Of a DNA stretch of 64,000 bases, positions 2,713 through 62,400 are shown piece by piece (positions within the stretch are counted from its first letter, which is position 1; each line of letters begins with the position of its first letter). Source of the DNA: Ligula intestinalis (lineage: Eukaryota; Platyhelminthes; Cestoda; Diphyllobothriidea; Diphyllobothriidae); contig JAYGXS010000007.1 of assembly GCA_036362985.1 (NCBI GenBank), positions 26,044,872-26,108,871 of the forward strand. The letters run 5' to 3'. Made by a program: the position numbers and the translations under genes. The notes under the pieces were generated by a model, which was given only the letters and a program-made list of their open reading frames with translations, ran no database searches and had not been told where the DNA came from.

Positions 2713-3399
<687 letters not shown>

Positions 3400-6545: not shown

Positions 6546-9500
6546 CAACTTGCGGCCGTCTATTTGAGTGTGGATATGGACTAATCACGAATACTACCCT
6601 CTCCCCCACCCCCCACTTACTCGTAGCTGTACTACAAAAACATGCCAATGCTTGCTGTTCTCTCGAGCTCCACACCAGCAGCCGCGCAACTGCCAGTACC
6701 GATAAAGCCTCGGCTATTGCAATGCCAACGATTGGGTCTGACTGGCTGACGATAACGACTAAGAAGTCAGAATTAGTCGTAATGAAGTCTTCCTTTTCGT
6801 TGTCGGTTGTGAATGGCTTCAGTGAGCATCCTCTAAATTGGGAGCGGCAAGACCTGAACACCAGGCAACTTGGGTGTCCCTCCGAACACGTTCGACAGCC
6901 GCAAGCGGAGACCTGAGTGAGGCATACTTGCGCAGCGCCTCCTGCACCGCTCTGCTACGATGACAAGAAAATGCCAAGAAAATAGATTCCAGCGTAGTAA
7001 CTGACGGAGGGTAAAGGCCTACGTAGAGGAAAACCACCGTACACCCATGCGTGACAGTGTTTATGCGCGCAGGCCGCCACTGCGCAGCCCGATAAACGCC
7101 CATCGTGAGCCAACGGTTAGAAGCATTTTTGCTCCTGTCTGTGTGGCACTGACGGGATAACTCAAACCGCGCGGACAATCGAACGTGTGCTTGTGTGGAG
7201 TGCCTGATTGGAATCAGAGGGCAATGGCTCCTACTTAATGTGGCTTTCATGGTACTCCCCCACTCAGTTGGGATCTGTGCCAGATGTGCCGGCACGCTTA
7301 GGAACGCCTCTGGCCGCGCCAGCCGCCCGCGCCGTCTTCCACCCCCGCTCTTCTCGTCTTGTTCAGGAGACCAGGCGTAGGCGGAAGACAGGAGGTGCGA
7401 TATATTCAGCGAAAGTTTACTCTCACTATAATCTGATTCACGCACTAATTAATGTCGCTGTGGCACTTTGATGTCACCGTTGACCTTGCCCAAAACCGGC
7501 AGTCAAACTTTCTCTCTCAGAACCGCAAGCCAACGCGCAAATCCATTGTGTGGGTGTAGGAGCCTGCCCCCCCCCCTGCCTGCTGGGGCGGCCGACGAAT
7601 ACTCGCTTTGTCTCGGTAGACTGGTGGTGATTGGCTGAACAGCGCAAGTTTGGAAAGGCGAAACTGGATGTGTTCGTAAGTGGCTCAGATGTTTGAGCGA
7701 GAACAGACAGGGGTTGCCGGCAAGTAGCGCCTGACCGCAGGCGGCATTAAGCGCGCAGGCCAAAGGCGCCAAGTGGCTGCTAGGGCCACTACAGTATCAC
7801 CACACTCGCATGTGTGCCCTTCACGTTGGCTCTCACGGGATCATGTATACCCTTCGGCATCGCGAGTCAAGCTGTACGCTGTATAATACTTGCAACTGGA
7901 ATTTCTATCAGAATAAACAGCATGGCGAGTGCTGCAAGAAACTTGTATAAGGTTGTAAAATTTTGGGTTTTTCTCGCATACCAGCGAGAACGCATTTACG
8001 AAAACTTGCAAATAAAAATGAGCAGCAGTTGGCATATTAAGTACTTTAAAGACCTATAAGAAGAACCAAGTGTTTTAAAAAAAACTTAATTTTTCCGATG
8101 AGCCCCAAGTTCTGCTGATGTAAAAAATAGCTATCAATTAGAGCAATAAATTTAAAAATTTAACAAGTTGAAAACGGAATGTAATTTCTTTATATAAAAA
8201 ACACGTTTCTTTAGTCCTTATATTTTGTTCGTATTACCATTAGTGGATAACTATTTACTGAATATCGTCGAATAAAGTCTGTCATTATTTTCTTCCTTTT
8301 CAGTGTCTTCATTGATAAATTGAAAAAAATTGCGCTTTCGTTCGACGTTTACATCAAAACCTTTAAAGTAAGATATATTGTAGGAGCTTGCTCCCCCCCC
8401 GCCCCCAGCGCTGACATGATCACTCATTCTGCCTGCTCTGTCAACGTGGCCAGTCAATCGATTTTTGGCGCATCGTGATTACTGGTTCACACTGGACTCG
8501 TCTCGCCACTTGTGATGACTGATCTACTAAGCGTAAACTGGCAGTCAACTCAGTCAATCGATTTTTGCGTACCGCTGATTGCTGTTATGCGCCGGATTTG
8601 TGGTCAGCGCTGGCAGAAACACACTTCACACTTAGCCCATTCAACAGGCAAGGCGGAACCCACTCGGCCTTTCGCCCCGGTGCGCGGCGGACGCGAGGCT
8701 GCGGCGCTCTCTCTCTCTCACTCCCCATGGTCGAACTCTACCCCAGGCCGAGTCAACCCTTCTGTTAATTCTTCTCCTACTTATTCTGCACAGAATATAA
8801 TCTCCTTCTACCTTGGATTCCAAGACTTCTATCTTCTTATAAGAAACTGGGCCTGGAAGATTGCAGTAGTTACGGTTTAACCGGCTTAGCCTTCACCACT
8901 TTGCGATATGGGTAGTCAAGAGAGCGCGCGCAAACCCACACAGTACCAAATGCGTGCGCTCAAGATAAGTTAAGGCGCCTTGACGGCGCGGTATTCGCAA
9001 GCGTTGCAGCATGTCACGCCTGGACTTGATTAAAAACCCCCACTGAAAGCAGCCAGTCTACACCCGCAAGTGAGAAAAAACACATCTTCGAGGCCAGGGC
9101 GAATGCCAGATGCACTAAACACGCGATNNNNNNNNNNTTTGGGAAAACGTCCGCCTTCATCCTCTTCGTTAATGTGATGAAACATCCGGACAAATGTACC
9201 CAGACACGGAAGAAAAACAGTGAAACCAAGCGGGAATTACTTTGCTAATGAGGGGGATTAAGCTGGCGGGGGCGGAGAGATTAGTCCAAACGAATTAGGG
9301 ATTATTGACAGGTTATAAAAAAGGCACCTGTCATGGCGAGGTCGACGACAGTGGCCCAATTCAAAAGCTAACAATTTAAAGCAAAGATGTTTTTTTCAGT
9401 GCTGGACTGGCTTGTAATTACCTTTTTTCTTCTGTTTCTTCTACCTACTTCAAAATAATCGTCTAGGTCACCTCTAATATGGGTGGAGTTGGGTCGCATT

Positions 9501-9972: not shown

Positions 9973-10469
9973 TTGGGATTCAGCGCACAAGTCCCATTCT
10001 AGTGGTCGAACGAAGGGGGTGAATGTAAATATATCCATTATCTACCTTTAATACCAGCTGCTACGGCAGTCAGGACCCCTGTCATTGGGGAAAGAGGCTT
10101 ACGGCTCCTGTTTCCGACTTTTCTTGTTCAGGAGACGCAAATTCAAGAGCACTATGCGGACGAAGCTACGTTCACCCCCCTCCGCTTCAACAGCAAGCCG
10201 TTCGTTTCCCTTAAGGCCCACCGAAATGGAAATGCCCTTAGAAAAGCAGGTCCATCATGGAACTAAAATTCGTTTTTTTTCTGCGAGGAATATCTCCGAG
10301 CATGTTTATTTGCGTGGACGCACATAGACTATTCAAACAGTGGGCACGAATTACACACTCCATTACTTTCTAACTTTCTGAGGATGGCTTATGAGCCAAG
10401 GTTGACGATTCTATTCTCCCTTGTCTTTACTATCTGCCTATATTGCCAGCTGTCAAGACTTCTTTCAAG

Positions 10470-10850
10470 ACCCATGAGTTTCGTTAGCGGTCCGGTGAAC
10501 GTTCATCAACGAATGTCAATATTCCCCGACCGGCGAGACAGCAAACTCTTGGCCCAATGGTTGTGACATTAGACACTGATCAAACAGGTCGCGAGCTGGA
10601 GCCCCGAGTGCTGCACCACTTGGGTCTGGATATGACTGCCTGACGACGGCTAATATGCCAGAAATGGCCATTCCAGTCTCCCTCATCTTTGACGGCAACA
10701 CCATTTGTCTACCTCCAGCCGTTACGACTGTCGGGACCTCTGTCGACGTCCTAGACCGAACGGGACAGGTAAATTCCGATAGCGGTCAGGTGAACGCTCG
10801 CCGAGGTGTGCCAAACATTTCTTTGTGTGTCATCTAATAGAATTCGACTC
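10470..10850 (+). mobile_element. SINE family 2 copy with hammerhead motif
   Basis: The SINE2 body is present, with GCCAGAAATGGCCATTCCAG at about 10656-10675. The family tail word (TAGCGGTCAGGTGAACGCTC) follows near 10780-10799, and a second tail-like word lies at 10478-10515. The hammerhead-like segment is 10634-10678 and is listed separately. The tRNA-like head is poorly preserved here. Confidence 0.55.
10634..10678 (+). ncRNA. Hammerhead ribozyme motif in SINE2 (copy a)
   Basis: The order is helix I strand GACTGC, core CTGACGA, helix II with 3 pairs (GGC/GCC), core GAAA, the self-complementary helix III AUGG/CCAU, H17 = U, and helix I strand CCAGTC. The base-adjacent pair of helix I is a C/C mismatch; the next five pair. 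The core is intact. The predicted cleavage site is between 10672 and 10673. Confidence 0.55.
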
Positions 10851-14639: not shown

Positions 14640-14995
14640 GGGAGGCAGGTTCACTTGAACGGATCTGAATGTACTCCTTGATGAACGTTCACTCGACCGC
14701 TAACAGAACTCATCTGTCCCACTCTGTCTTGGATCTCACCAGAGGCCATGGCAGCTGTAACAGCTTGTAGAATAAGCAGATAGTATCACCGGCAAAGACA
14801 GGGGAGACTGAAATGGCCATTTCTGGCTTATTCGCCGTCATCAGCCAGTCATTAGGAGACCCAATTTGTACCCCATTCGAGCCTCGAACTCGCAAACTTT
14901 TTTGATCACAGTCTTACGCCCTAACCATTTAGCCATGAGATTGTTGTCTTACCGGTCTAGGTCAGGGGATGGGAGTGGATCTTAATGCATCGGTT
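14640..14995 (-). mobile_element. SINE family 2 copy with tRNA-like head and hammerhead motif
   Basis: On the minus strand a tRNA-like head lies around 14870-14940, with box A-like TGGCTAAATGGTTAGGGC and box B-like GCGAGTTCGAGGC. The hammerhead motif (14806-14850) follows, then the tail containing the TTAGCGGTCGAGTGAACG-type word at about 14685-14702. This is the clearest example of the full order of head, ribozyme and tail. Confidence 0.65.
14806..14850 (-). ncRNA. Hammerhead ribozyme motif in SINE2 (copy b)
   Basis: Helix I is GACUGG/UCAGUC, six pairs including one G-U. The core CTGATGA and GAAA are intact. Helix II is GGC/GCC (3 pairs, loop including AATA). Helix III is AUGG/CCAU with no loop, and H17 is U. 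The predicted cleavage lies between 14812 and 14811. The base of helix II is a C/A mismatch, as in the other copies, which may lower activity in cis. Confidence 0.65.
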
Positions 14996-19439: not shown

Positions 19440-19945
19440 AATAGGACACCTTTAAGCTAAATTGGACCTTTCCTGAAACCCACGGTTAAAGTTTGCCTAT
19501 TTTATTTTTAAAGTTGCGAAAATTCCAATTAGATAATTCAGAACACAAGTTTGGCGAGCGAACGCTTTCAGTAACTTCTCATCAGGCCAAATAGTTACAA
19601 AGGAGGTTTAAATTTAAAAATCTATAGTATGTCTTTCTTTACATGCAGGGTTCAAACAGAGTGCGGAAATATGCAGCCAGTTAGGTAATCGTTGGCCATG
19701 CCAAGTTGGGAGCTTGCACGAGATTCTTTTGTGCACACAAAATAGGTTTCCTCAATCGGATTACGGTTGCTTCTGCTGTTGCCAGCAGACGTTGACCCAG
19801 GGACTTTGGGTAACTTGGTGGGACCTTGATATATACCGTAAAGGCTTCGCTTTGGTCCACACGATGTCCGGTGTCAACCACGTGTGCCAAGAACCAAATG
19901 GAAAGCACTCGGGTAAAGATTGATGAACTGGAGCTTCACGTGTGT
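19440..19945 (-). pseudogene. PLE family I: inverted 3' end (tail plus C-terminus)
   Basis: The minus frame 19681-19908 encodes the last ~75 residues of the PLE protein, ending NLAWPTIT, nearly identical to the C-terminus at 25216-25440. Its 3' tail runs to about 19440 and carries a hammerhead motif. This truncated copy lies head to head with the plus-strand element that starts near 19946, an inverted-flank arrangement seen at several PLE loci in this window. Confidence 0.8.
19550..19591 (-). ncRNA. Hammerhead ribozyme motif in PLE family I tail
   Basis: Minus strand: helix I strand TTTGGC, core CTGATGA, a short GAAGTTACT in place of helix II, core GAAA, helix III GCG-TT-CGC closed by the A-U pair, H17 = C, and helix I strand GCCAAA (6 perfect pairs). 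Predicted cleavage is between 19556 and 19555. Helix II is at best 2 pairs. Three sister tails (25535, 46010, 47035) carry core changes. Confidence 0.6.
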
Positions 19946-20943: not shown

Positions 20944-22658
20944 CTAGGTGGCAGAGCTATCAACAGGTAGATCCGCGAGAGACAAGGCAACAGCTTCCTT
21001 GTGGAGTGCTCGAATAGACGGCCGGACATTGCGGCAGGGCTCGGGAGCGGTGCAACGGTGATGATTGGGATGGCCGGGTTGCGAACAACTCCACCAGAAC
21101 TGCTGGCTAAAGAGAGTGTTGTGATGGGCGACCAGTAGAACAGAAGCCTCCGCATTAAGAGGATCTATAGGCGACATTTTATAGCAAGCCGTGATCGTGT
21201 GGAGGGCAGCGTTCTGTGCTGACTGGAGGCGGCGGACGCTGGAAGAGCTCATCATAGGAGACCAGATTGATGCCGCACAAGTGAGGTGCGGCTTGGCCAG
21301 CGCCTGGAAAGCAGTCGACACAGGCTCTTTCGCGCAGCCCCAGGATGTGCCTGCTAGAGCCTTGAGGACCTTGGTGCAGCGGCTTACTTTGCTTGCGGTC
21401 TCCCTGGCATGGTCTGCGAACGTGAAAAGCGGATCAAAAAGCACACCAAGGAGTTTGGGCTTGCGGACGAGCGGTAAGGACGCCCCATTGACGGTGATGA
21501 CCGGGTGACGATTAAACTCCTTCGGATCAAGCGTGAAAACAGTTACGGAAGACTTGGCTGCCGAGATCGTCATTCCGCGCTGGGTAAGGAATTTTTCGAC
21601 AACAGGCATGAACTCCGTGAGGAGCTGTGCAGCCTGATCGATGTCATGGTGCCGGCAAAAGAACTTAACATCGTCTGCGTAGGATACCACTTGCACAGGT
21701 GCCCGGGGGAGTGGGAGCTCTCGCATGTAAATGTTAAAGAGCGTCGGGCTGAGCACATAGCCTTGAGGGGCGCTACATGTCTGCTTACGGGGCTTAGAGA
21801 GAGAGCGCCCCGAAAAAGGGCACGATCGTGACGGCCGCGGATGTAAGCCGCAAACCATCGGACCAGGCTAGTTGGGACGTTCAGCGAGACCAAGTCCTGC
21901 AGGAGCTGATCATGGCGGACGCAGTCAAAGGCTCGTTACAGGTCAATCGAGACTTCCACGGTCCGCAAAGCGGGCTTCTGTTGATTGAAGCCCTCGAGGA
22001 TAGCGTCGCTGAGCTCGAAAAGCGCCGTTGTAGTCCCACGACCCTATCAGAAACCACGTTGGTGGCAAGATAGTTCCGCCACAGGCGTCAGAATTGGGTG
22101 GACGAGCCGTTCCAGGATCTTCGCCAATGAACTGAGGAGGGCAATTGGGCGATAAGAGGTCGCTAGGCTGAGGTCCTTGCCCGCTTTGACCAGGGGGATA
22201 ATGATCGACTGGCGCCAGCAATCGGGGATGATTGAAGTTCCCAGTGAAAGGTTGAAGAGGGCGGCAAGGTAGGCAGCCACCTTCGGGCCGATGTGGCGCA
22301 CATGGATAGGCGCCAGACCATCTGGTCCTACGGCTTTCGAAGCTCTAGTTTTCTTGACGGCGGTGAGGATGGCATCAGCCGAAAAGGAAATGTCTGGGGG
22401 CGGGGCTTTATAGAGGAGACGAAGAAGGGAGCGCTGGCTTTTGGGATTGGGCACCGAGTGGGGCGAGAACAGCTTTTTCATCTTCGCGGCGATCTTACCG
22501 TTGTTGGGAATGAACTTCTCGTCCCCGAAGCTACTAGATTGGTTAGATGTATCAGCCCGGGGTTTGGTCAGGTTTCGTAAACGCTTCCAAGTGGCAGCTG
22601 AGTTGCCGCTGAAATTGCAATCTGAAACTAGTTCATGCCAGCGTTTGGCATTTGCCAT
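20944..22658 (-). pseudogene. LINE reverse transcriptase region, frameshifted
   Basis: It lies in two main frames. The first (22658-22047) carries the N-terminal RT with KAVGPDGLAPIHV and SYRPIALLSSLAKILERLV. The second (21858-20944) has APQGYVLSPTLFNIYM, the catalytic VSYADDVKFF and the thumb region RLQSAQNAALHTI. The segment between them, with YIRGRHDRALFRG, is in a third frame (21893-21570). At least two frameshifts make it non-functional. Confidence 0.87.
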
Positions 22659-22685
22659 CGGTGATAGTCTTAGTGATTAAGCCAT

Positions 22686-23339
22686 TCAGTTCGCTAACGC
22701 GCGGGTCACTGGCATCACGCGCTCGTATTTCGTATCTCTCTCTTGTTCCAGGCGGGAGGCTTCGGGCGGATAGTTAGGACGGAGAAGGGGAATGCGGCCG
22801 TTAGGGATGTGGTGACTTGCTGCTGCTAGGAGTAGTCGACGAAGGGCTCGCTCAGCCGTGTGGACACAGATGGGAGGCGGTAGGCCATCGATCTCGGCTT
22901 CGCATTCGGTCGTGAACGCTGCCCAATTGGCTTTCTTGAAATTAATGAAGTCCAGGTTGGGGGCCTTGATACGCTCGGCGGCGGTGGCCAATTCGAGCAC
23001 AATGGGGAGGTGGTCACTACCCAGGCTGATTTCCGTGTTCCACATGGTGGAGGCTACCAGGCCGAGACTGGCGAGGGAAACATCGGGCGAGCTGGAGGCG
23101 CCGTTGGTCGGGAGCCGCGTTTGGCTGTTCTCGTTGAGAACGGCAAAGGGGGCGTGTTCTATTTCATTAGCCAGCGCTTCCCCTCGCGGGTCGGCTGCCA
23201 AGTTAGAGCACCACAGGTCATGGTGAGCGTTGAAGTCACCTAGCACCAAACTGTCTCCAAAAGGTAAGTAGGGAGCGATAGAGGCGGTGAAACCGGGAGA
23301 AGTTGGAGAGATGTACACGTTCACGACGGTTAGCGGCAC
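22686..23339 (-). pseudogene. LINE AP-endonuclease domain
   Basis: This is the longest intact frame of the endonuclease. It includes the start of strand VNVYISPTSPG, LGDFNAHHDLWCS (metal-binding and catalytic Asp/Asn) and LGSDHLPIVL (catalytic His). The N-terminal part (FNANGLLGKLDQ and AAIQETKW) is in a second frame at 23610-23340 with two stops. The enzyme would nick the target DNA during retrotransposition. It cannot be made from this copy. Confidence 0.85.
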
Positions 23340-23544
23340 CGGGCCAATGTCAAGGAAAATCGCAAGTACTTCCGTGGAATCGGCTCCAAGCGGGGGGAGC
23401 TGGTGATGGCAATGGATTTGTCCACTAGGAAGGCCAAACCTCCGCCTTTGTTGCGGCCGCGGTCGCGACGGACAATCGTGTAATCGGCACAGGAAGGGAC
23501 CTAAGTGGAGTTAGACCACTTTGTCTCTTGGATAGCAGCCACAG

Positions 23545-24059: not shown

Positions 24060-25440
24060 ATATCATGCAATAGCGAAGTGGTTGGCAAAGAAACTAAAGG
24101 CCATACAGCATCAGCTGGCACCACATAGCTAAAAAGATACGTTCCCATTTATCGATGGCATCAAGGACATGAAATTAAACGGCATGATGATGATCTCCCT
24201 AGACGTCTCATCACTGATTACAAACGTTCCAGTAACAGAAACAGTCGACTATATCTCCGACTTCGTAGTGGCAAATCAAATAGACGTAGGAATACCATCA
24301 GACGTATTAAGGGAACTATAACTCAAATGCACATTAAATGTGCAATTCCTTTTTGACAACCAACTATACAGACAAATAGACGGCGTCGCTATGGGCTCGC
24401 CTCTCGGGCCTCTCTTGGCCAACATCTTCATGGGCAAACTGGAAAAATTTCAATTCAACAAGCAGATCCATGAGCTAAAACACTATGGCCGATATGTCGA
24501 TGATATCTTCGCCATCGCCCCAGCAGATACTGATGTAAATGCACTTCTACATACTGTTAATCAAGCACACCCCTCCATTAAATTTACCTTGGAGGTGGAG
24601 ACGGCAGGTTCGCTTCCTTTCTTGGATGTCCTCCTAAGTCGAAGACCTGACGGTAGCATCCAAAGGAGCGTTTACCGAAAGAAAACCTGGTCCGGACAGT
24701 ATACAAACTTTAACAGTTTTGTACCTATCCAACAGAAGCCTAACTTAGTCCGCTACTTAATGCAAAGAGCCAGAAAAATCTGCTCAGCTGACACTATTGA
24801 AATGGAGCTCCAGAAATCCCAGGACGTGCTTCGAGAGAACGGATATCCGGACAGATTCATCATAAAGAATATGATGGAGAAAGGAACAAAGCCCACAACG
24901 CCCACGGTGGAATAGAAGACGCTATTCCTCAAAGTTCCTTTTCAAGGGGATGCAGCAGGCGAACTCTTAAGCAGACGCCTCAAGCAAGCCGTAGCACAAA
25001 CCTTCCCAGCAGCGAAAATTCAGGTGTTATTTTCAACCAACCCGATACTGCACGGTGAGGGTAAGGATAAGCTGCCAACTCAGACCACTTCTATGTGTAT
25101 CTACTCATTTACTTGCTCCTGTAGAACTGGTTATATCGATCGCACGAGTAGGCGCTTATCTAAAAGAATACGGGAACACCTCCCGGCATGGCTAGCCAAA
25201 GGCGAAACCAAAAGCCTAAACAGTTCGATCCTCGCACACATGGTTGACACCGGACATAGTGTGGACACAAGCGAAGCCCTTACGGTATATTACGAGGTCC
25301 CACCAAACTACCCAAACTCCCCGAGTCAACGTCTGCTGGCAACAGCAGAAGCAACCGCAATCCGATTGAGGAAACCGGTTTTGTGTGCACAAAAGAATCT
25401 CGTGCAAGCCCCCAACTTGGCATGGCCAACGATTACCTAA
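24060..25440 (+). pseudogene. PLE family I: RT C-terminal half and GIY-YIG domain
   Basis: The frame resumes after the LINE. It shows SLDVSSLITNVP, the core motif GVAMGSPLGPLLANIFM, the catalytic YVDDIF, LPFLDVLLSRR and the GIY-YIG region IYSFTC...GYIDRTSRRLSKRIREH, ending AWPTIT. In-frame stops occur after LAPHS and LREL. A third (24913-24915, TAG) replaces the AAG of the 46-kb copy by one base change. The YIG motif is YID here and in the 46-kb copy, but YIG in the fragment at 25.9 kb. Confidence 0.9.
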
Positions 25441-27330: not shown

Positions 27331-28550
27331 GAACAGCGTACTGCTTCCGTGAAATCCAGTTAATCACGGAATGGTTTGTGTGCGACTGAAATGTTATTTC
27401 GCGACTACCTCTGACAGCCTGTTTGACTGTGCCGCTGTCGTTGTTAAGCCAAACCTTTTCGCGCATACAATACCTTGTGTTACGGCAGAAGAGTTGAACC
27501 CGTAACCATGTCTGCTCTTTCCCGACTGCGTTGACTATAGGAAAATACCTTAAATGCGAGCATTCAGAAGCCAAATCTATCTACATTATCTAGATTTTCT
27601 TGAGACTTGGACAGTTCCGTGACAGTACATGCACAAAGACCAGAACAAAATGGTCACATCAAACCTAGGGAAACCGAACTGATACGAGCACGCGACGAAC
27701 GCATCCCAAGGGAAGACAGAGAGATAAAGCACTCTCCGTCGAGTTGGCGAGGTGAAACGCCAGCCAACGTAAGAAGACTGAGACAGGCAACGAAGAAACC
27801 AAATACATCAACTGAAGGCCAACTAGCTCGGCCAGTCCCTTAAACCTTTGATCGCTTCGAAGTAGAGAGTTGATTAAGCTCTTCGAAACGTGAGCAACGG
27901 GGCAAAACTTCTCCAGTGACCAACTACAGCCCATCAGATTGCCCAGTCCAAATTTGACCAGACAGTTTCACATTGTGCCCTCATTCATTCGCATTTAAGT
28001 CAGGAATAACCAGGTCATTAATTTCGTCACATGAGAGATTCGCGTACGCTTAAAAGCATTTCCGCTTTGCCTTAGGAGTGAGAGCTGTGTAATGAAAAGA
28101 CAGACTATCACCGAGCGATAACCCAGCAGTTGTCTCTACCTAATGCATTGCAATGAGAAGAACTGCAATCACGTGGGGGAAACCAGACGGAAATTTCAGA
28201 CGCATCTACAAATTGGCCACTCGGAGGCTGCACTCACACCCGCAGGGGAGAAACTGTTAACCTTCAGGTGAGGATTTCCGCCTCGCCTGGAAGCTGGGAG
28301 CCGAGAGGCAGGGGGAGAATATCAATAAATAAGTGAGATCTTTTTGCCTACAAAGATAGGGAGAGGCCATGTCTGGCCTAGTTGCTGCCATCAACCAATG
28401 ACACGAGCATACCTGGCTGAGCAACCGAGATTGGAGTAATGTTGATGCAGTAGCGGACGGATGACATGTGGGTTGGGCTTGACTGTGAAGGCGGCTTGCC
28501 CGTTAAGTTAGCTGCTGGCTACCCGGCGCGTCCACGGGTGGCGGAACGAC
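27331..28550. other. No gene recognised
   Basis: Short ORFs without domains. I see no repeat family that is shared elsewhere in the window. Confidence 0.4.
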
Positions 28551-39780: not shown

Positions 39781-39784
39781 CGTA

Positions 39785-40080
39785 CTGAGCTCGTATCTCG
39801 TTGGTTAGGACGTTTGCCCTGACCGGAGAGATCGCAAGTTCAAAACTCGGGTGTGGCAGCAATTAGAGCGGCAACACTGGAGTTGGGTATCACTAGCTGA
39901 TGACACCCAATAAGGCAGAAATGGCCATTCTAGTGTCCCGTATCTTGTCGGTAATGTCCTTCCGCCCATATCCTAGCTGCCTCGCGGTGGATGCTCGAGT
40001 GAGAGCCCCAATGGCAAAATAGATGGACGAGTGGGTCCTCTGACAGGTCGGTGTACGCGTATTTGCTACTATATAAGAAA
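39785..40080 (+). mobile_element. SINE family 2 copy with head and hammerhead motif
   Basis: A tRNA-like head (TATCTCGTTGGTTAGGACG, then GCAAGTTCAAAACTCGGG) at 39793-39852 is followed by the hammerhead at 39891-39935. The SINE2 body follows (GTCGGTAATGTCCTTCCGCC). Confidence 0.65.
39891..39935 (+). ncRNA. Hammerhead ribozyme motif in SINE2 (copy c)
   Basis: Helix I is CACUAG/CUAGUG, 6 Watson-Crick pairs. Two of them are changed on both strands compared with copies b and e (G-C to A-U, and G-C to C-G). The core CTGATGA and GAAA are intact. Helix II is weak (2 pairs). Helix III is AUGG/CCAU with H17 = U. Predicted cleavage is between 39929 and 39930. Confidence 0.6.
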
Positions 40081-40324
40081 ATGTACACGCGAATGGAGAG
40101 GAAAAATGGCGGACTAGTTTAGAACATAAAGAACAGACACAGTGAGGCAGAAGGCGAAATATATGCTGGTGCGCGGCTTTTCGATTAATGTTTGAGGAAA
40201 AACTTTTGATAATTGAGTCTGACGCTGTATATCAATGAGCCACGGGGTGTAAACGGGAATATTAATTGCGAAAGAGTGGCGCTCACGGATCAAGCTAGAG
40301 CGACAGGCCTGTCACGCTGTGGCT

Positions 40325-40490
40325 TGGGGCTAAATCTAGAGCCCTTGCGGGTAGTTACATGGTAACGAAGATCCAGGGTTAGAATGCCAGATGTTCCACC
40401 CATCTGGGATTCGTTGAAGCTGGCTAATAAGCAAGACATGGCCATTTCGGTGTGCTTGTCCTTGTCGGATCCACTCCGTTATCTGCAGAG
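40325..40490 (+). mobile_element. SINE family 2 fragment, ribozyme deleted
   Basis: It shows GCTGGCTAATAAGCAAGAC and ATGGCCATTTC words in SINE2 order, but about 10 bases spanning the CTGATGA core are missing. A weak tRNA-like head lies upstream at about 40350. Confidence 0.45.
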
Positions 40491-40499
40491 CATACAGCA

Positions 40500-41915
40500 T
40501 TCTGAGCTACACAGAGGATAGACAACCACTACAGACGAACGGTCAGTTCATGACTAAGTTCAAGTTAGACTATTGCTTGCGTCATTGGGTCGAGTTGTCA
40601 GCACAGTTCGTAGTAAAGCACCAAAAATCTAGATGACAAGCGAACAAAAAAATATGATTAACTGAAGCTAATCTGGAGCAAAGGTAGTTAGTCGTCGGCC
40701 TGCATAATCTCCAGTACAGCATGCCACAAGCAATAACAAACAACGTCAGTTTGCCGTGATTAAAACTGTTAACAGTATAACCGACCGGTGTTTGTCATTT
40801 TGCAAACGGCATGAGACAGCGCTTCTAGCCTTTTCGAAGATTCTACTCTGTTGGACAGGTCTAAAAAATAGACTTGGCGGAAGTTCCGAGGGTGTCGGAG
40901 GCCGCCGCCTGCCACACAGTGGCTAATAGACTTGCGCTGCATCCACCTCTCTTTCTTTTAGCTTTTTCCCCTCTCTCCGCTGACTAGAATGGGAGGCCAA
41001 AGCAAAGAGCTATGGGCTCGGACGCAAAGCAAAACAGTACAGCTACGTGTGCAACACACGAGCCGGTCACGCAGAAATGTTCCCAATTTCTGCGAGGATG
41101 AACGGGATTGCCATGAAGTATCGGCAGCACCACAGCTATACTTCTTCCAGTGAAGACCTCCCTCTATGAGTCTTATAGTCTGTCCGTAGGTCAACCTGGA
41201 CTTTTCAGCAGACAATCGTTGGACACTTCATTTACTGTTACGGTTACTGGAAACTATTATCGAAATTTACCTTACTTCAGACTGACCCAGCGTTGCTAGT
41301 AATCGCGTGAAAGCAAACCCTGATCTCCTAAGGAGAACCGAAGAACAGAAATGAAACGATACATAAATAACGTAGGTTTACACAAAAGCCTGACGCGGTC
41401 ATATACTTGGCAGGCAGCTGAGGTAGACTTGCGAGCCATATCTTGCCATATCAACTGTGTTCTAGTGAAAAGTCAATGTAGGGGCGGCCGAACGTGGGCG
41501 TGGACGCGGGGGCTGGCAAAGCAAAATACCCCGTCTACGCGTGCCAGACACGGGAACTGGTCAACAAAGAAATGTACCAAAGTCCTGTAAGGGTGAAACA
41601 GATGTCGAATGTCTGAGATTGCCATGAAAGCCACACTGAGAAGGGGGCTCACCCTCACAACTGAGAAGACCGAGTTATCTCGACGGCCACGTCGTGTGGA
41701 GCAATACAAACTACAGACCCCAGACGGATATGGTACAGTTCTATGTTAGCACCAAGCAAACACACACACACACACACACTGGATTTCGAAACATGCGGGC
41801 TCGATCTGACCTCCACACCAGGGCGGGACGAGTATCTGCTGTAGCTGATTGGTGTATGGCCATCTGCCCCTGTATATCCACAATCAAATACCGACAAGAT
41901 AGCGAGCCCGCGGAG
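40500..41915. other. Unassigned region
   Basis: A (CA)n run lies at about 41760-41779. The remainder shows short ORFs only. The 41610-41650 part resembles 7215-7260 weakly. Confidence 0.4.
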
Positions 41916-41917
41916 CA

Positions 41918-42195
41918 GTGGTTGGGGCGTTGGACTTCTAACTAACAAGGTCGCGGGTTCGAAACTCGAGTGGGCACAAATTTCTGGAGCATGATTAGCT
42001 GACGACTGCCAAAAGGCCAGAAATTGCCATCCTAGTCTTCCTTGTCTATGTCGGTAATTTCCTTCTGCCACAATCATTAGCCACCTTGCGGCGTTGCTCG
42101 AGTGTGAACCCAAAAAGCACGAGCGCGAGACGAGTGTGTCCTCTAACTGATCGAAGTACGCCTGGCTGCCACTGTACAGAAGTCGCTAAAAGCCA
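41918..42195 (+). mobile_element. SINE family 2 copy with tRNA-Arg-like head and hammerhead motif
   Basis: The head has GTGGTTGGGGCGTTGGAC, an anticodon-loop-like TTCTAAC and box B GCGGGTTCGAAACTC at 41953-41967. The hammerhead motif follows at 41993-42037, then the SINE2 body. The TCT-like anticodon loop suggests origin from an arginine tRNA; this is inference. Confidence 0.65.
41993..42037 (+). ncRNA. Hammerhead ribozyme motif in SINE2 (copy d)
   Basis: Helix I is GAUUAG/CUAGUC, 6 pairs with one G-U. The core CTGACGA and GAAA are intact. Helix II is GCC/GGC, offset by a mismatch. Helix III is AUUG/CCAU with one mismatch, and H17 = C. Predicted cleavage is between 42031 and 42032. Confidence 0.55.
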
Positions 42196-45990: not shown

Positions 45991-46110
45991 TATCACATGC
46001 AGAACACAATTTTGGCGAGCGAACGCGTTCAGTAACTTCTCATCAGGCCAAACAGTTACAAAGAAGGTTTAAATTTAAAAATCGATAGTTTGTCTCTCTT
46101 TACATGCAGG
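45991..46110 (-). repeat. Inverted PLE family I tail
   Basis: It matches the minus-strand tail at 19540-19660. The hammerhead motif position keeps CTGATGA but has GAAC instead of GAAA. It joins the coding segment directly at about 46110. Confidence 0.7.
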
Positions 46111-46113
46111 GCA

Positions 46114-46947
46114 GGTTCGCTTCCTTTCTTGGATGTCCTCCTAAGTCGAAAACCTGACGGTAGCATCCGAAGGAGCGTTTACCGAAAGAAAACCTGGTCC
46201 GGACAGTATACAAACTTTAACAGTTTTGTACCTATCCAACAGAAGCGTAACGTAGTCCGCTGCTTAACGCAAAGAGCCAGTAAAATCTGCTCAGCTGACA
46301 CTATTGAAATGGAGCTCCAGAAATCCCAGGACGTGCTTCGAGAGAACGGATATCCAGACAGATTCATCATTAAGAATATGATGGAGAAAGGAACAAAACC
46401 CACCACACCCACGGTGGAAAAGAAGACGCTATTCCTCAAAGTCCCCTTTCAAGGGGATGCAGCAGGCGAACTCTTAAGCAGACGCCTCAAGCAAGCCGTA
46501 GCACAAACCTTCCCAGCAGCGAAAATTCAGGTGTTATTTTCAACCAACCCGATACTGCACGGTGAGGGTAAGGATAAGCTGCCAACTCAGACCACTTCTA
46601 GTTGTATCTACTCATTTACTTGCTCCTGTAGAGCTGGTTATATAGATCGCACGAGTAGGCGCTTATCTAAACGAATACGGGAGCACTTCCCGGCATGGCT
46701 AGCCAAAGGCGAGATCAAAAGCATAAACAGTTCGATCCTCGCACACGTGGTTGACACCGAACATCGTGTGGACCCAAGCGAAGCCTTTACGGTATATTAC
46801 GAGGTCCCACCAAACTACCCAAAGTCCCTGGGTAAACGTCTGCTGGCAACAGCAGAAGCAACCGCAATCCGATTGAGGAAACCGGTTTTGTGTGCACAAA
46901 AGAATCTCGTGCAAGCCCCCAACTTGGCATGGCCAACGATTACCTAA
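46114..46947 (+). CDS. PLE family I 3' half, open frame (RT end plus GIY-YIG)
   Basis: An uninterrupted reading frame runs from AGSLPFLDVLLSRKPDG through ENGYPDRFIIKNMMEKG, FSTNPILHGEGKDKL and the GIY-YIG region (IYSFTC, GYIDRTSRRLSKRIREH) to NLAWPTIT and a stop. About 278 codons are free of stops, unlike the 24-25 kb copy. The catalytic RT motif YVDD is upstream of the truncation and absent. YIG is YID, changing the conserved Gly. It is a truncated element and probably not expressed as a host protein. Confidence 0.8.
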   Translation, partial: GSLPFLDVLLSRKPDGSIRRSVYRKKTWSGQYTNFNSFVPIQQKRNVVRCLTQRASKICSADTIEMELQKSQDVLRENGYPDRFIIKNMMEKGTKPTTPTVEKKTLFLKVPFQGDAAGELLSRRLKQAVAQTFPAAKIQVLFSTNPILHGEGKDKLPTQTTSSCIYSFTCSCRAGYIDRTSRRLSKRIREHFPAWLAKGEIKSINSSILAHVVDTEHRVDPSEAFTVYYEVPPNYPKSLGKRLLATAEATAIRLRKPVLCAQKNLVQAPNLAWPTIT

Positions 46948-47689: not shown

Positions 47690-47800
47690 GAGCAAAATAA
47701 GTAGGTTTAACTGGCTGATGACGGCTAATAAGCCAGAAATGGCCATTCCAGTCTCCCTTGTAATGCTACAGCTGCTGTCAGGGCGGAGCGATGAGGACTG
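47690..47800 (+). mobile_element. SINE family 2 fragment with complete hammerhead motif
   Basis: Only the ribozyme and the start of the body (GTCTCCCTTG) remain. The tRNA head is not seen upstream. It contains the best-paired SINE2 hammerhead of the window. Confidence 0.6.
47709..47753 (+). ncRNA. Hammerhead ribozyme motif in SINE2 (copy e, best)
   Basis: Helix I ACUGG/CCAGU (47710-47714 with 47748-47752), core CTGATGA (47715-47721), helix II GGCU/AGCC with loop AAUA, core GAAA (47736-47739), helix III AUGG/CCAU with no loop, and H17 = U at 47747. Predicted cleavage is after 47747. One C/A mismatch sits at the base of helix II. All invariant core bases are present. Helix III is self-complementary, which would favour a dimer. 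Confidence 0.7.
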
Positions 47801-49632: not shown

Positions 49633-51289
49633 ACAGACAAGCACGGAATCCAAAATACCGTGACCACCCTTCAGCCCCCTCCTGTGCCCGGTGTCGAGAC
49701 AGCGTCAAGAAGACCGGAAGCTAGATCATACGCAGGTGGCGTGAATCCGCGCCTACATAGGACACCACATCTTCTGCCCCCCCCCCCCCCCAGCCCCAAC
49801 ATTTGACATATATCATAAATGGACATCTCCAAGAGCACCCGCCCTGTCCGCGTCTGACAGCCGCGTTGGTTCAGCACAGGTAACACGTGCCCCCCCCCCC
49901 CCCCCCCCGGAAGGAGATCACGCACTTGCGGACCAACCGTGATAATGTCAGCAGAAGGCGAACGATCGGGGTGCGGCAAACTATTGGACAGAGACCGATG
50001 ACAGACGGACATGGCGCTCATTTAGACAGATAGTATTGCCGACAAGGAGAAGGGAGACGGCAATGTCCGTTTCTGGCTCATTAACCGTCGACAGCGCTGT
50101 GCGCGAAACACACTAACATACACCAAAACAACACCACCATACTAGGTAGGCTCCCACGTGTGCGGGGCGTCATAAAGGCCACATTAAGAGGAAACCATTG
50201 CAGCCTGACTCTCATTTCACAGTAAGCCCCTCCACAACGCAATAAACACTGGGCTGACTGCGGTGTCCAAATCATCCCGTCAGTTGGCAACCCTCCGTGC
50301 CACGGCTTTTAGTGCACCGCGATTGCTTCAAGCACATCAGATTGTTTTTAGTGGGGAAAGAAATGCGCTGAGGGTCGACCTCACGCTCTCACCCCACCCC
50401 ATCGCCAATTTTATCGGTTGCCTGAGTAACATCCTCCGCGTCTGTTGTTGCTTAACAAAGCCTGCCAGCCTGCCGGTCAACTCGCCCACAATCAAGATAC
50501 GAGCTGCGTGGACACTGGCTTGTCGGCTTCTTTTAAATCCTGAAGGTCGTCTACCGGCAGGTGAAAGTGGTGGTAAACTCAACGGGGCGAAGCCTGCCCC
50601 TCCCCCCTCCTCCTCATTCGGCTATGGCGTCGCAACTGTTGCCAGTAGGACGAGGAGGGGGAGGGAAGCTTATGTGCGCACAAACCATTGGTGTAGCGTG
50701 GAAAGGCTGTTGTCGCAACCGTTTAGAGACAAATAGCATCAGTTTGTTATCTTGGGGAGGGTTGGGTTGGCCACACGCCGGAGATGAAAGCGTAAGAGGA
50801 AGCGCGCTTGACTGTGCATACATAATGTCTTAAGTTCGCTTAACCTGTACGCAGATAGACACACGGACAGACGATCTGCCCTTGGTAATGGTCCAGAACG
50901 GCATGATGTTATTTTCCACAGAAGACGGCTCTCCGTTTGCACTAAAAAAACATCTGATGTTGACTTGGAAGGACATTTGAGTGCTGCTCCCAGAATGCCT
51001 GGCTTAAAGAGGACATCGAGCAGGTTCTCAGATTAGAAGCAGACACGTGTATACCCCCTTCCATTACCACGGCGAAGTCATGTGCAACGCTGATAATAGA
51101 GAGCATCTTAGGGGGTAGGGATCAGTTTAATGGACGTCGCAGCAGGACAAGTGAACAGGAACCACGAGTAATGAAGAGTTAACATAAGAGTTAAGGTCAG
51201 GATCAGAGCCAAGCACCGGTTTTTTTATTACTGCCTGGGTTAGAACGTCGAGGTCAGACTACTGGAATATTTACACCTTCCCTAAATTT
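49633..51289. other. Unassigned region with SINE2 traces
   Basis: It holds runs of 15 and 19 C (49777-49791 and 49890-49908). A SINE2-like trace in reverse lies at 50055-50100 (AATGTCCGTTTCTGGCTCAT). An ORF of 157 codons at 50263-50736 is without domains. I see no gene. Confidence 0.4.
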
Positions 51290-51670
51290 TCACAAGGTCA
51301 TCTGTTAGTATAGGCATATAATATTGCCGGCGAAGACAGGGAAGACTGGAAAGGTCATTTCTGACTTATTAGCTGTCTTCAGTCGGTCATACCTAGACCC
51401 AAGTGGTATCTCACCCGAGCGTCAAACTCGCGACCTCGTTGATCGGAGTTTAACGCCATAACCATTGAGCCACGACCTCTTTATCTCGTCGATTTAGGTC
51501 AGGGAATATCGACACCCGGTTACGAGTGTTCACATGACCGCTAACGAGATTCACCTGTCGCGTTCTGACTTGGGCCTCGCAGCAATACTATCTGCATAGG
51601 CCCAAACCAGTGTAAGACAGATGAGTTCCGTTAGCGGTCAGGTGAACGTTCGTCAACAAGCATTATGGGG
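51290..51670 (-). mobile_element. SINE family 2 copy with decayed hammerhead
   Basis: On the minus strand the tRNA-like head is at about 51420-51490 (TCGTGGCTCAATGGTTATGG, GTCGCGAGTTTGACGC). The ribozyme position (51330-51395) reads CTGAAGA and GAAATGACC but helices I and III no longer pair. Tail words (TTAGCGGTCAGGTGAACG and its complement) lie at 51510-51655. It sits between two diverged copies of a 100-base sequence (51190-51300 and 51670-51760). Confidence 0.55.
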
Positions 51671-55446: not shown

Positions 55447-55711
55447 AGGTAGGGGCCAATCAACCGTTATGGGGGAGGGGGGAAGGGGTAGGGGAACAGT
55501 CAACCAACGGTGCCATCATTCCGGAGATGCCTGCGCAGCGCGATTTATGCCGGCGCCAGATCGATAAATCGATTGACTAAGTTCTCATTCGAGGCGGCCC
55601 AGGCTTCCATCGATTCGCGGCACTGTTGCTTGGCTGTCCTCCCCCTTCTCCCTCCCCCCATAACGGTTGATTGGCCCCTGCGTACTATAACTGTTGCTAG
55701 TCTTTCGTTTA

Positions 55712-61516: not shown

Positions 61517-61567
61517 TATATATATATATATATGATGTTATACCATACGTCCGCATAGATACTAGCT

Positions 61568-61650
61568 AAAAGCCCAGACACGTGTTTCGCCGATGTTTTA
61601 TGCTACTGCATGATACAGCAACGAGGGGTTCGGCTCTTCAGTAGGCCCCC
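61568..61650 (-). ncRNA. Hammerhead ribozyme, satellite unit A
   Basis: Minus strand, identical to unit B in every helix: GCCTA, CTGAAGA, GCCGA, long loop, TCGGC, GAAA, CAC/GTG, TC, TGGGC. Predicted cleavage lies between 61577 and 61576. All core bases are intact. Confidence 0.78.
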
Positions 61651-61754
61651 AACGTTCTCTATGCGGTTTATAGTATATTAACTCCAGATAATAATCCAGG
61701 AAATAATCGCGGAAATTATTAGGTGCATGACATGGAAACCGCATAGAGAACGTT

Positions 61755-61836
61755 GGGGGCCTACTGAAGAGCCGAACCCCTCGTTGCTGTATCATGCAGT
61801 AGCATAAAACATCGGCGAAACACGTGTCTGGGCTTT
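61755..61836 (+). ncRNA. Hammerhead ribozyme, satellite unit B
   Basis: Helix I is GCCUA (before the core) with UGGGC (after cleavage), 5 pairs including one G-U. The core CUGAAGA is at 61764-61770. Helix II is GCCGA/UCGGC, 5 perfect pairs closing a 36-base loop with its own possible TGCT/AGCA hairpin. The core GAAA is at 61817-61820. Helix III is ACAC/GUGU with no loop. H17 = C at 61828, so cleavage is predicted after 61828. This is a type I hammerhead, as in schistosome satellite DNA. Helix III is palindromic and may need two molecules. Confidence 0.8.
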
Positions 61837-62111
61837 TAGCTAGTATCTATGCGGACGTATGGTATAACATCATTGTCATATAGAATTCACACTACTTGTA
61901 GTGCTACTCGTTTGTAGAATGGACATTTCCGTGGTTATTCCGCGGCAGTTGATCGTCTTCGACGAAAATGTTAATCAAACTCTAGGGTCTGATCCTTCAA
62001 AGTCATGTTCCATCCACCTACTTCCATGTCGTGCACCTAATAATTTCCGCGATTATTTCCTTGATTATTATTATCTGGAGGTCATATACTAGAAACCGCA
62101 TAGAGAATGTT

Positions 62112-62192
62112 GGGGGCCTACTGAAGAGCCGAACCCCTCGTTGCTGTATCATGCAGTAGCAGAAACATCGGCAAAACACGTGTCTGGGCTTT
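62112..62192 (+). ncRNA. Hammerhead motif with broken core, satellite unit C
   Basis: All three helices match unit B, but the second core block reads AAAA (62173-62176) instead of GAAA. This replaces the catalytic G12. It is predicted inactive. Confidence 0.75.
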
Positions 62193-62346
62193 TAGCTAGT
62201 ATCTATGCGGAAGTATGGTATAACATCATTGTCATATGGAATTCACACTACTTGTAGTGCTACTCGTTTGTAGAATGGACATTTCCGTGGTTATTCCGCG
62301 GCAGTTGATCGTCATGTCCCATCCACCTACTTCCATGTCATGCATC

Positions 62347-62400
62347 GAATAATTTCAGTAGGTGTCAAAACAGGCTCAAGGATGCTGAGACTGATACAGC
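62347..62400 (-). repeat. Reversed fragment of repeat R8
   Basis: It reads AGTAGGTGTCAAAACAGGCT and continues as the complement of 59375-59415. It is joined directly to the end of satellite unit C. Confidence 0.6.

Follow-up and report, generated by a model that had tools for sequence, protein, structure and literature searches.

Small retroposons that carry a hammerhead ribozyme have a precedent in flatworms. According to the cited passages of PMC2770079, the Sm-alpha and Sj-alpha elements of schistosomes are SINE-like and contain a hammerhead, and about 38,500 hammerhead candidates have been reported for S. mansoni (passages from PMC2770079 and PMC8490949). A second group of related elements is known as the metazoan non-LTR retrozymes. 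These are described, in the cited portion of PMC7229834, as units of 150-450 bp that occur as dimers to multimers, encode a type I hammerhead and have target-site duplications when these are present.

Here, a comparable element is described from the tapeworm Ligula intestinalis, whose assembly comprises 644 Mb in 2377 contigs. The window is the whole stretch of DNA that was analysed, which is 64 kb (64,000 nucleotides) in length. A retroposon family with a tRNA-like head in this window contains a central block with the letters, helix order and covariation of a hammerhead fold. The function of the conserved central domains of SINEs is an old open question, and one SINE-like central block now gains a concrete, testable RNA structure. 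A preliminary description had held that a polymerase III SINE able to trim itself would be notable in this lineage, which is tempered by the schistosome elements (PMC2770079, in the passages cited). A hammerhead fold probably kept by structural selection in an abundant tapeworm retroposon would nevertheless lie beyond the schistosomes, the flatworms from which elements of this type have been described. For cestodes, no report of a hammerhead SINE was present among the matches listed from the open-licence literature.

The block at 47.7 kb and its copies

The block is numbered 1-50, with site 1 at T47708, and the full set of hammerhead core letters (CUGANGA, GAA, A15.1-U16.1 and H17) is found on the forward strand at 47708-47753. 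The 5' strand of helix I spans 47709-47714 (sites 2-7) and the 3' strand 47748-47753 (sites 41-46). Both covary among copies, ACTGG at 47710-47714 faces CCAGT at 47748-47752, and the outer pair is A.C in this copy. The CUGAUGA core, C3 to A9, follows at 47715-47721 (sites 8-14), position 7 being the variable one. Stem II with its AAUA loop occupies 47722-47735. Here, GGCT-AATA-AGCC is located at 47723-47734 (pairing sites 16-19/24-27), and 10.1, a C at 47722 (site 15), faces 11.1, an A at 47735 (site 28), in a non-canonical C.A. The remaining part of the core, 47736-47747, comprises G12-A13-A14 at 47736-47738 (sites 29-31), A15.1 and U16.1 at 47739 and 47746 (sites 32 and 39), the palindrome AUGGCCAU of helix III, and H17, which is U at 47747 (site 40). 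The predicted cleavage site is after 47747. As the palindrome is loopless, helix III can be drawn as 2 bp with a 4-nt loop, or as an 8-nt palindrome.

The block observation itself is confirmed, and the motifs named beforehand (ACUGG/CCAGU, CUGAUGA, GGCU-AAUA-AGCC and H17 = U) are all where they had been placed. The letters AUGG/CCAU are also present, but the 4-bp hairpin proposed for them is impossible. The C.A at 10.1/11.1 had been overlooked. A loose descriptor in which 10.1-11.1 is free finds two sites in the 64-kb window, both of them copies of the block, whereas a shuffled window has on average 0.007 sites with a 5-bp helix I and 0.02 with a 4-bp one (150 shuffles). The strict descriptor, in which a standard 10.1-11.1 pair is required, finds none in the window. 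A chance motif was rejected on this shuffled-window control and on covariation. Pattern scans of viral contigs gave no matches.

Searching the window with nhmmer gave 12 block matches at E<1e-3. In addition, 28 ten-kilobase stretches (contigs C1-C3) were picked without regard to matches. Together, window and stretches yielded 29 copies at E<1e-3, 11 from the window and 18 from the stretches, and the 17.6-kb match, the twelfth of the first search, was absent from this second one. The stretches have approximately 255 kb of readable letters, and their density extrapolates, roughly, to about 45,000 copies genome-wide, that is, tens of thousands.

On the forward strand of the window, the other copies include a degenerate block with an unclear head (6706-6808), a multi-unit element of the form block-tail-head-block-tail with blocks 260 nt apart in two head-to-tail units (10373-10830), a head-block-tail copy of family C (39783-40086), whose block at 39890-39939 differs by compensating substitutions in helices I and II, a partial head and block (40368-40487), and a copy longer than one unit, in the order tail-head-block-tail (41800-42180). 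On the reverse strand are a head-block-tail copy of family A (14652-14988), a degenerate block (28333-28404), a block without a recognisable head (50019-50095), and a tail-head-block copy (51205-51580) that ends at 51301 or 51205 depending on the model. Adjacent to the latter is an inverted, 5' inversion-like tail fragment on the forward strand (51598-51662). The recurrence of the block, already proposed in the preliminary description, is borne out by the nhmmer matches and is wider than was listed, with further copies near 6.7, 10.4, 28.3 (-), 40.4, 50.1 (-) and 51.4 (-) kb. The 10.6-kb copy had been listed as one with no clear head; its head begins at 10526, and another unit, from 10373, precedes it head to tail.

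The window has other features of its own. At 19550-19591 (-), the ends of a Penelope-like element carry another hammerhead-like motif (TTTGGC, CTGATGA, GAAA, GCGTTCGC, GCCAAA), which has a weak stem II; there are relatives around positions 46020 and 47050, and pieces around 25600. Penelope-like reverse transcriptase is encoded in two copies, 24322-25440 and 46036-46947 (+), which are approximately 96% alike over 1 kb and have a possible GIY-YIG-like region. The Penelope-type enzyme at 24322-24915 shares 77-78% identity with Sparganum/Spirometra proteins, and its best-scoring D. latus match is 66% over 88% of the length, which points to a diphyllobothriid tapeworm or a near relative as the likely host. 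At 20944-23510 (-) there is a broken LINE, in which both an endonuclease and a reverse-transcriptase domain are present. A tRNA-Arg(GCG) and a decayed relative, at 1647-1724 and 3258-3342 (+), lie within a 185-bp repeat that is 87.6% alike. Finally, long nested inverted and direct repeats (61532-62356, 89-97% alike) form a hairpin that matches the miRNA model MIR477 below cut-off on both strands, and a palindromic repeat at 55451-55679 also has a miRNA model match below cut-off.

Covariation of the helices

Three copy sets were used: 24 copies from the window and the 28 stretches, 39 near-consensus copies chosen by match, and 39 copies of the C family. For the 24 copies, a first copy-level test gave compensated fractions of 5/9 in helix I, 5/8 in helix II and 1/2 in helix III against a background of 93/191, which is no clear excess. 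A second copy-level test found 11 compensated pairs where 5.6 were expected (P 0.02). A shuffle test on 20 copies was weak (13/500 for paired cells, 22/500 for covariation and 22 to 63 of 500 for other measures).

Instead, the deciding covariation evidence comes from the subfamily level. The copy at 39890 departs from the consensus at eight sites, and six of these changes make up three compensatory pairs. Eight random changes produce at least three compensated pairs in 4.25e-5 of simulations, or in 0.005 if confined to stem sites. As a result of these compensatory changes, the genome was searched with the 39.9-kb copy (2376 candidates, 40 scored; 39 of the 40 other matches retrieved), and this provided the C family. 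When the consensus of these 39 copies is set against the reference consensus, only block sites 2, 6, 17, 26, 42 and 46 are different, and the six changes are three compensatory pairs: 2-46 from GC to CG, 6-42 from GC to AU, and 17-26 from GC to CG. Further swaps exist inside the family, where 7-41 is CG in 9/39 copies and 33-38 is AU in 10/39, the latter showing that helix III covaries as well.

When 20 copies of the first set were combined with 38 of the 39 C copies, 57 distinct rows were obtained. In these, 88.0% of hammerhead pair cells are paired versus 76.2% after shuffling, there are 73 doubly changed cells versus 27.4, and covariation is 0.336 versus 0.155 (0/500 shuffles for each). Row shuffles ignore relatedness, and for this reason more weight was given to the swaps seen separately in subfamilies and to controls with slid structures; structures slid along the 57 rows reach a covariation of at most 0.076. 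Two stricter counts, on which relatedness has the least influence, gave no clear result, with 8 pairs changed on both sides versus 6.6 (96/500) and 24 further pair types versus 20.9 (33/500) in the same rows. Of 1081 column pairs ordered by corrected mutual information, the hammerhead pairs 17-26, 33-38, 2-46, 6-42 and 7-41 take ranks 1, 4, 5, 7 and 10. The remaining five in the top ten, for example 2-6 and 9-38, are not hammerhead pairs and reflect linked subfamily changes. When 13 hand-listed subfamily-level changes were placed at random, a single run out of 1,000,000 yielded five compensated pairs. Three helices in hammerhead order, with the open end in helix I, are supported by covariation. 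The preliminary description had stated that its proposal would fall if genome-wide copies kept no pairs in helices I and III beyond neutral decay. The genome copies did not refute it, as all three helices show compensatory changes in them.

Core letters, the 10.1-11.1 pair and predicted folds

The 10.1-11.1 pair is the most conserved hammerhead pair after A15.1-U16.1, and U.U at this position permits more cleavage than other mispairs (both from the cited part of PMC3088659). In the tapeworm element, 10.1/11.1 is C.A in 20/24 copies, in 28/39 near-consensus copies and in 36/39 C copies, and C.A is the consensus state of both the reference and the C groups. A standard pair, as hammerheads have, is restricted to 4/24, 8/39 and 1/39 copies, respectively; in 7/39 near-consensus copies it is U10.1-A11.1 with an intact core. 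The rest of the core is that of a hammerhead, as the consensuses have CUGANGA, GAA, A15.1-U16.1 and an H17 that is not G.

The complete set of 11 fixed core letters survives in 8/24 copies, in 33 of the 39 near-consensus copies and in 23 of the 39 C copies, and most copies in the 24-copy set are decayed. Core letters are better conserved than stem letters, at 0.871 versus 0.786 in the 24 copies (Mann-Whitney p 0.0011) and 0.981 versus 0.917 in the near-consensus copies (p 0.007). Across 29 aligned rows, conservation of core letters is 0.79-0.90 and that of 11.1 (A) is 0.97; position 7, which is free in CUGANGA, is at 0.61 among the least conserved sites of the block. H17 is mostly U and is G in none of the 24 + 39 + 39 copies (one of the 24 is gapped there).

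Variants do occur. U4 is replaced by C in 9/39 C copies (L086, L087, L091, L094, L095, L097 and L102-L104), a natural core-variant set in which the helix III A-U swap is present in eight and H17 = C in seven. Pair 19-24 is A.A in 10/39 C copies. Of 20 near-consensus copies, 11 have A and 9 have G at site 2, which means that many A/B copies have A.C as the outermost pair of helix I. Six of the 20 have G at site 43, so that 5-43 is sometimes a wobble. For the schistosome W element, the cited passages of PMC8490949 describe two hammerheads that are inactive in vitro, one mutated in the core and one with a deletion at the cleavage site, and three intact ones with a very short stem III that are active.

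In Rfam searches, 20 of the 39 C copies and 20 of the 39 near-consensus A/B copies were used. Hammerhead_HH9 (RF02275), a model built independently of this element, matches four of the 20 C copies in the fold of the block (E 0.00076, 0.026, 0.063 and 0.089), with an alignment that includes an outer part of helix I. Scores are 20-27 bits, the best being 26.6, against a gathering score of 52. The remaining 16 C copies gave no hammerhead at E<=10, the 20 A/B copies none at E<=1, and the 64-kb window none at the gathering score; the window has a sub-threshold HH9 match at 39878-39954 (21.6 bits, E 0.93). Given the 10.1-11.1 pair and these scores, the block is classed as a hammerhead-fold variant and not as a consensus hammerhead ribozyme. 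RNAalifold predicted no structure on A1 or A2. Minimum-energy folds are 5-9 kcal/mol below the hammerhead in all four consensuses, and helix I is present in those of C1 and C2. A rival hairpin, CUGGCU/AGCCAG, was considered and rejected because the C family disrupts it and because it scores below its own shuffles (500/500).

What do these features mean for catalysis? Activity that is weak or has been lost is suggested by three of them: C10.1.A11.1 is conserved, helix III is minimal, and alternative folds are more stable. Since C.A is the rule, cleavage is expected to be slow. It is likely that the RNA cleaves its own transcript at a low rate or once did; for present or recent source elements, self-cleavage has about even odds. 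Cleavage might be aided if two AUGGCCAU palindromes pair with each other in a dimer, or if the C.A is protonated to C.A+, and the U10.1-A11.1 copies would be the better enzymes. A more specific version, in which an active subclass keeps the C.A, perhaps as a protonated C.A+ wobble or through rescue in palindrome-joined dimers, and cuts the multimeric RNA of an abundant tRNA-headed retrozyme, is conceivable, albeit doubtful. In any event, the family is a natural one for testing cleavage with C10.1.A11.1.

Element anatomy, competing readings and known systems

In the unit models, a tail (T), a tRNA-like head (H) and the block (D) can be told apart. For approximately 10 of 22 or so heads in the window and the 28 stretches, by our count, T is directly upstream on the same strand; the others are H-D-T. 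The heads have A- and B-box-like letters by eye, ARAGORN calls a tRNA in 1/20 copies, and the Rfam tRNA model matches below gathering in 2/20 (L032, L043). Elements longer than one unit, arranged head to tail, are found at 10373-10830 and 41800-42180 in the window and at 6434-6946 in L024. From block to block, the unit measures 260 nt in the first of these (10373 to 10633) and 320 nt in L024, inside the 150-450 bp range of retrozymes. In the tandem elements read, the upstream unit is partial and 5'-truncated. Tail-head-block elements in L021, L023 and L019 end just past the block; the L012 and 51-kb elements end near it by one model and are extended by another. L024 has a 10-bp target-site duplication, TGCCCCAGGA, and the other nine of the ten elements examined have none of 9 nt or more. 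Inverted tail pieces adjoin the 51-kb element and L023. With its tandem and permuted units, the element is more retrozyme-like than a plain SINE. Of the tRNA-derived SINE with a self-trimming hammerhead that had been put forward initially, the retroposon with a tRNA-like head and a hammerhead fold is upheld, the trimming is a prediction, and the plain SINE gives way to the retrozyme-like form.

The preferred reading is that each unit encodes a type I hammerhead fold, with matched changes in helices I-III, that likely cuts, or once cut, a multimeric transcript after H17 (probability roughly 0.6). The fold itself is a hammerhead by letters, helix order and covariation; that it is under structural selection in an Sm-alpha/retrozyme-like element is suggested by the sequence comparisons, and cleavage is plausible. 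The tRNA-like head would direct transcription by RNA polymerase III, and multimers would be cleaved to units of about 260-320 nt with 2',3'-cyclic phosphate and 5'-OH ends. An enzyme of the tRNA-ligase type may then circularise the units, and circles or multimers could be reverse-transcribed by a LINE. Such templates would produce copies with shifted start and end points that sometimes exceed one unit. Units head to tail and opened at varied points would be the trace expected of circular or multimeric RNA templates, as in retrozymes (PMC7229834, cited passages).

The tandem copies could also be ordinary SINE dimers made by template jumping of the reverse transcriptase, with no ribozyme involved. 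This is a simpler account of the tandem part, it agrees with the partial, 5'-cut upstream units, and the inverted tail pieces fit LINE-type priming, but tail-head-block elements that end just past the block and the covarying hammerhead helices are left unexplained. We consider it rather unlikely. Another possibility is a fossil: the block would descend from an active type I hammerhead, C10.1.A11.1 would have become fixed in the source gene at the expense of useful cleavage, and the fold would be retained for a different RNA role such as recognition by a LINE reverse transcriptase or RNA stability. C.A in both consensuses, U4 to C in nine C copies and helix pairs that covary still are consistent with this, as are elements that stop just past the block, which would put it close to the 3' end, the expected binding site of a LINE enzyme. 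However, core letters that a mere three-way junction could dispense with are better conserved than the stems, H17 is never G across all three sets (one gap aside), and 7/39 near-consensus copies combine U10.1-A11.1 with an intact core. We consider the fossil rather unlikely.

SINE superfamilies have conserved central domains, such as CORE, V, Deu and Meta, and the block might be one of these, conserved at the protein or DNA level and like a hammerhead by chance. It is common to families with different tails, and in 56/276 pairs chosen for head identity above 0.62 the identity is 0.73 for blocks, 0.66 for heads and 0.36 for tails, a comparison that favours the block since the copies were found by it. 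Against this are the compensatory changes in all three helices, the HH9 match, a loose descriptor that is expected only 0.007-0.02 times per 64 kb, and a protein search with the open frame crossing the block that found no relative. This reading is highly improbable.

The hammerhead-fold reading can be set beside four known systems. Hammerhead_HH9 shares the fold and is the best Rfam match of 4/20 C copies, although at 20-27 bits versus 52 and with no match in the other 16. The minimal hammerheads of Penelope-like elements/Terminons (PMC7229834, cited passages) have the short helix III in common with the block; they differ in helix I and stem II, and no reverse-transcriptase gene was seen in the tapeworm unit. 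Sm-alpha/Sj-alpha, likened by description in the cited passages, are alike in the flatworm host, the tRNA-related SINE-like element (335 bp in one example) and the type I hammerhead. The tapeworm element is set apart by its cestode host, the C.A at the start of stem II and the minimal helix III, and its cleavage is predicted whereas, per the same passages, that of Sm-alpha is proven. Finally, retrozymes differ from the tapeworm element, which has a tRNA-like head, many single or partial units and C.A at 10.1-11.1, yet the two are alike, as far as the cited description goes, in unit length, in head-to-tail units and in the type I hammerhead fold.
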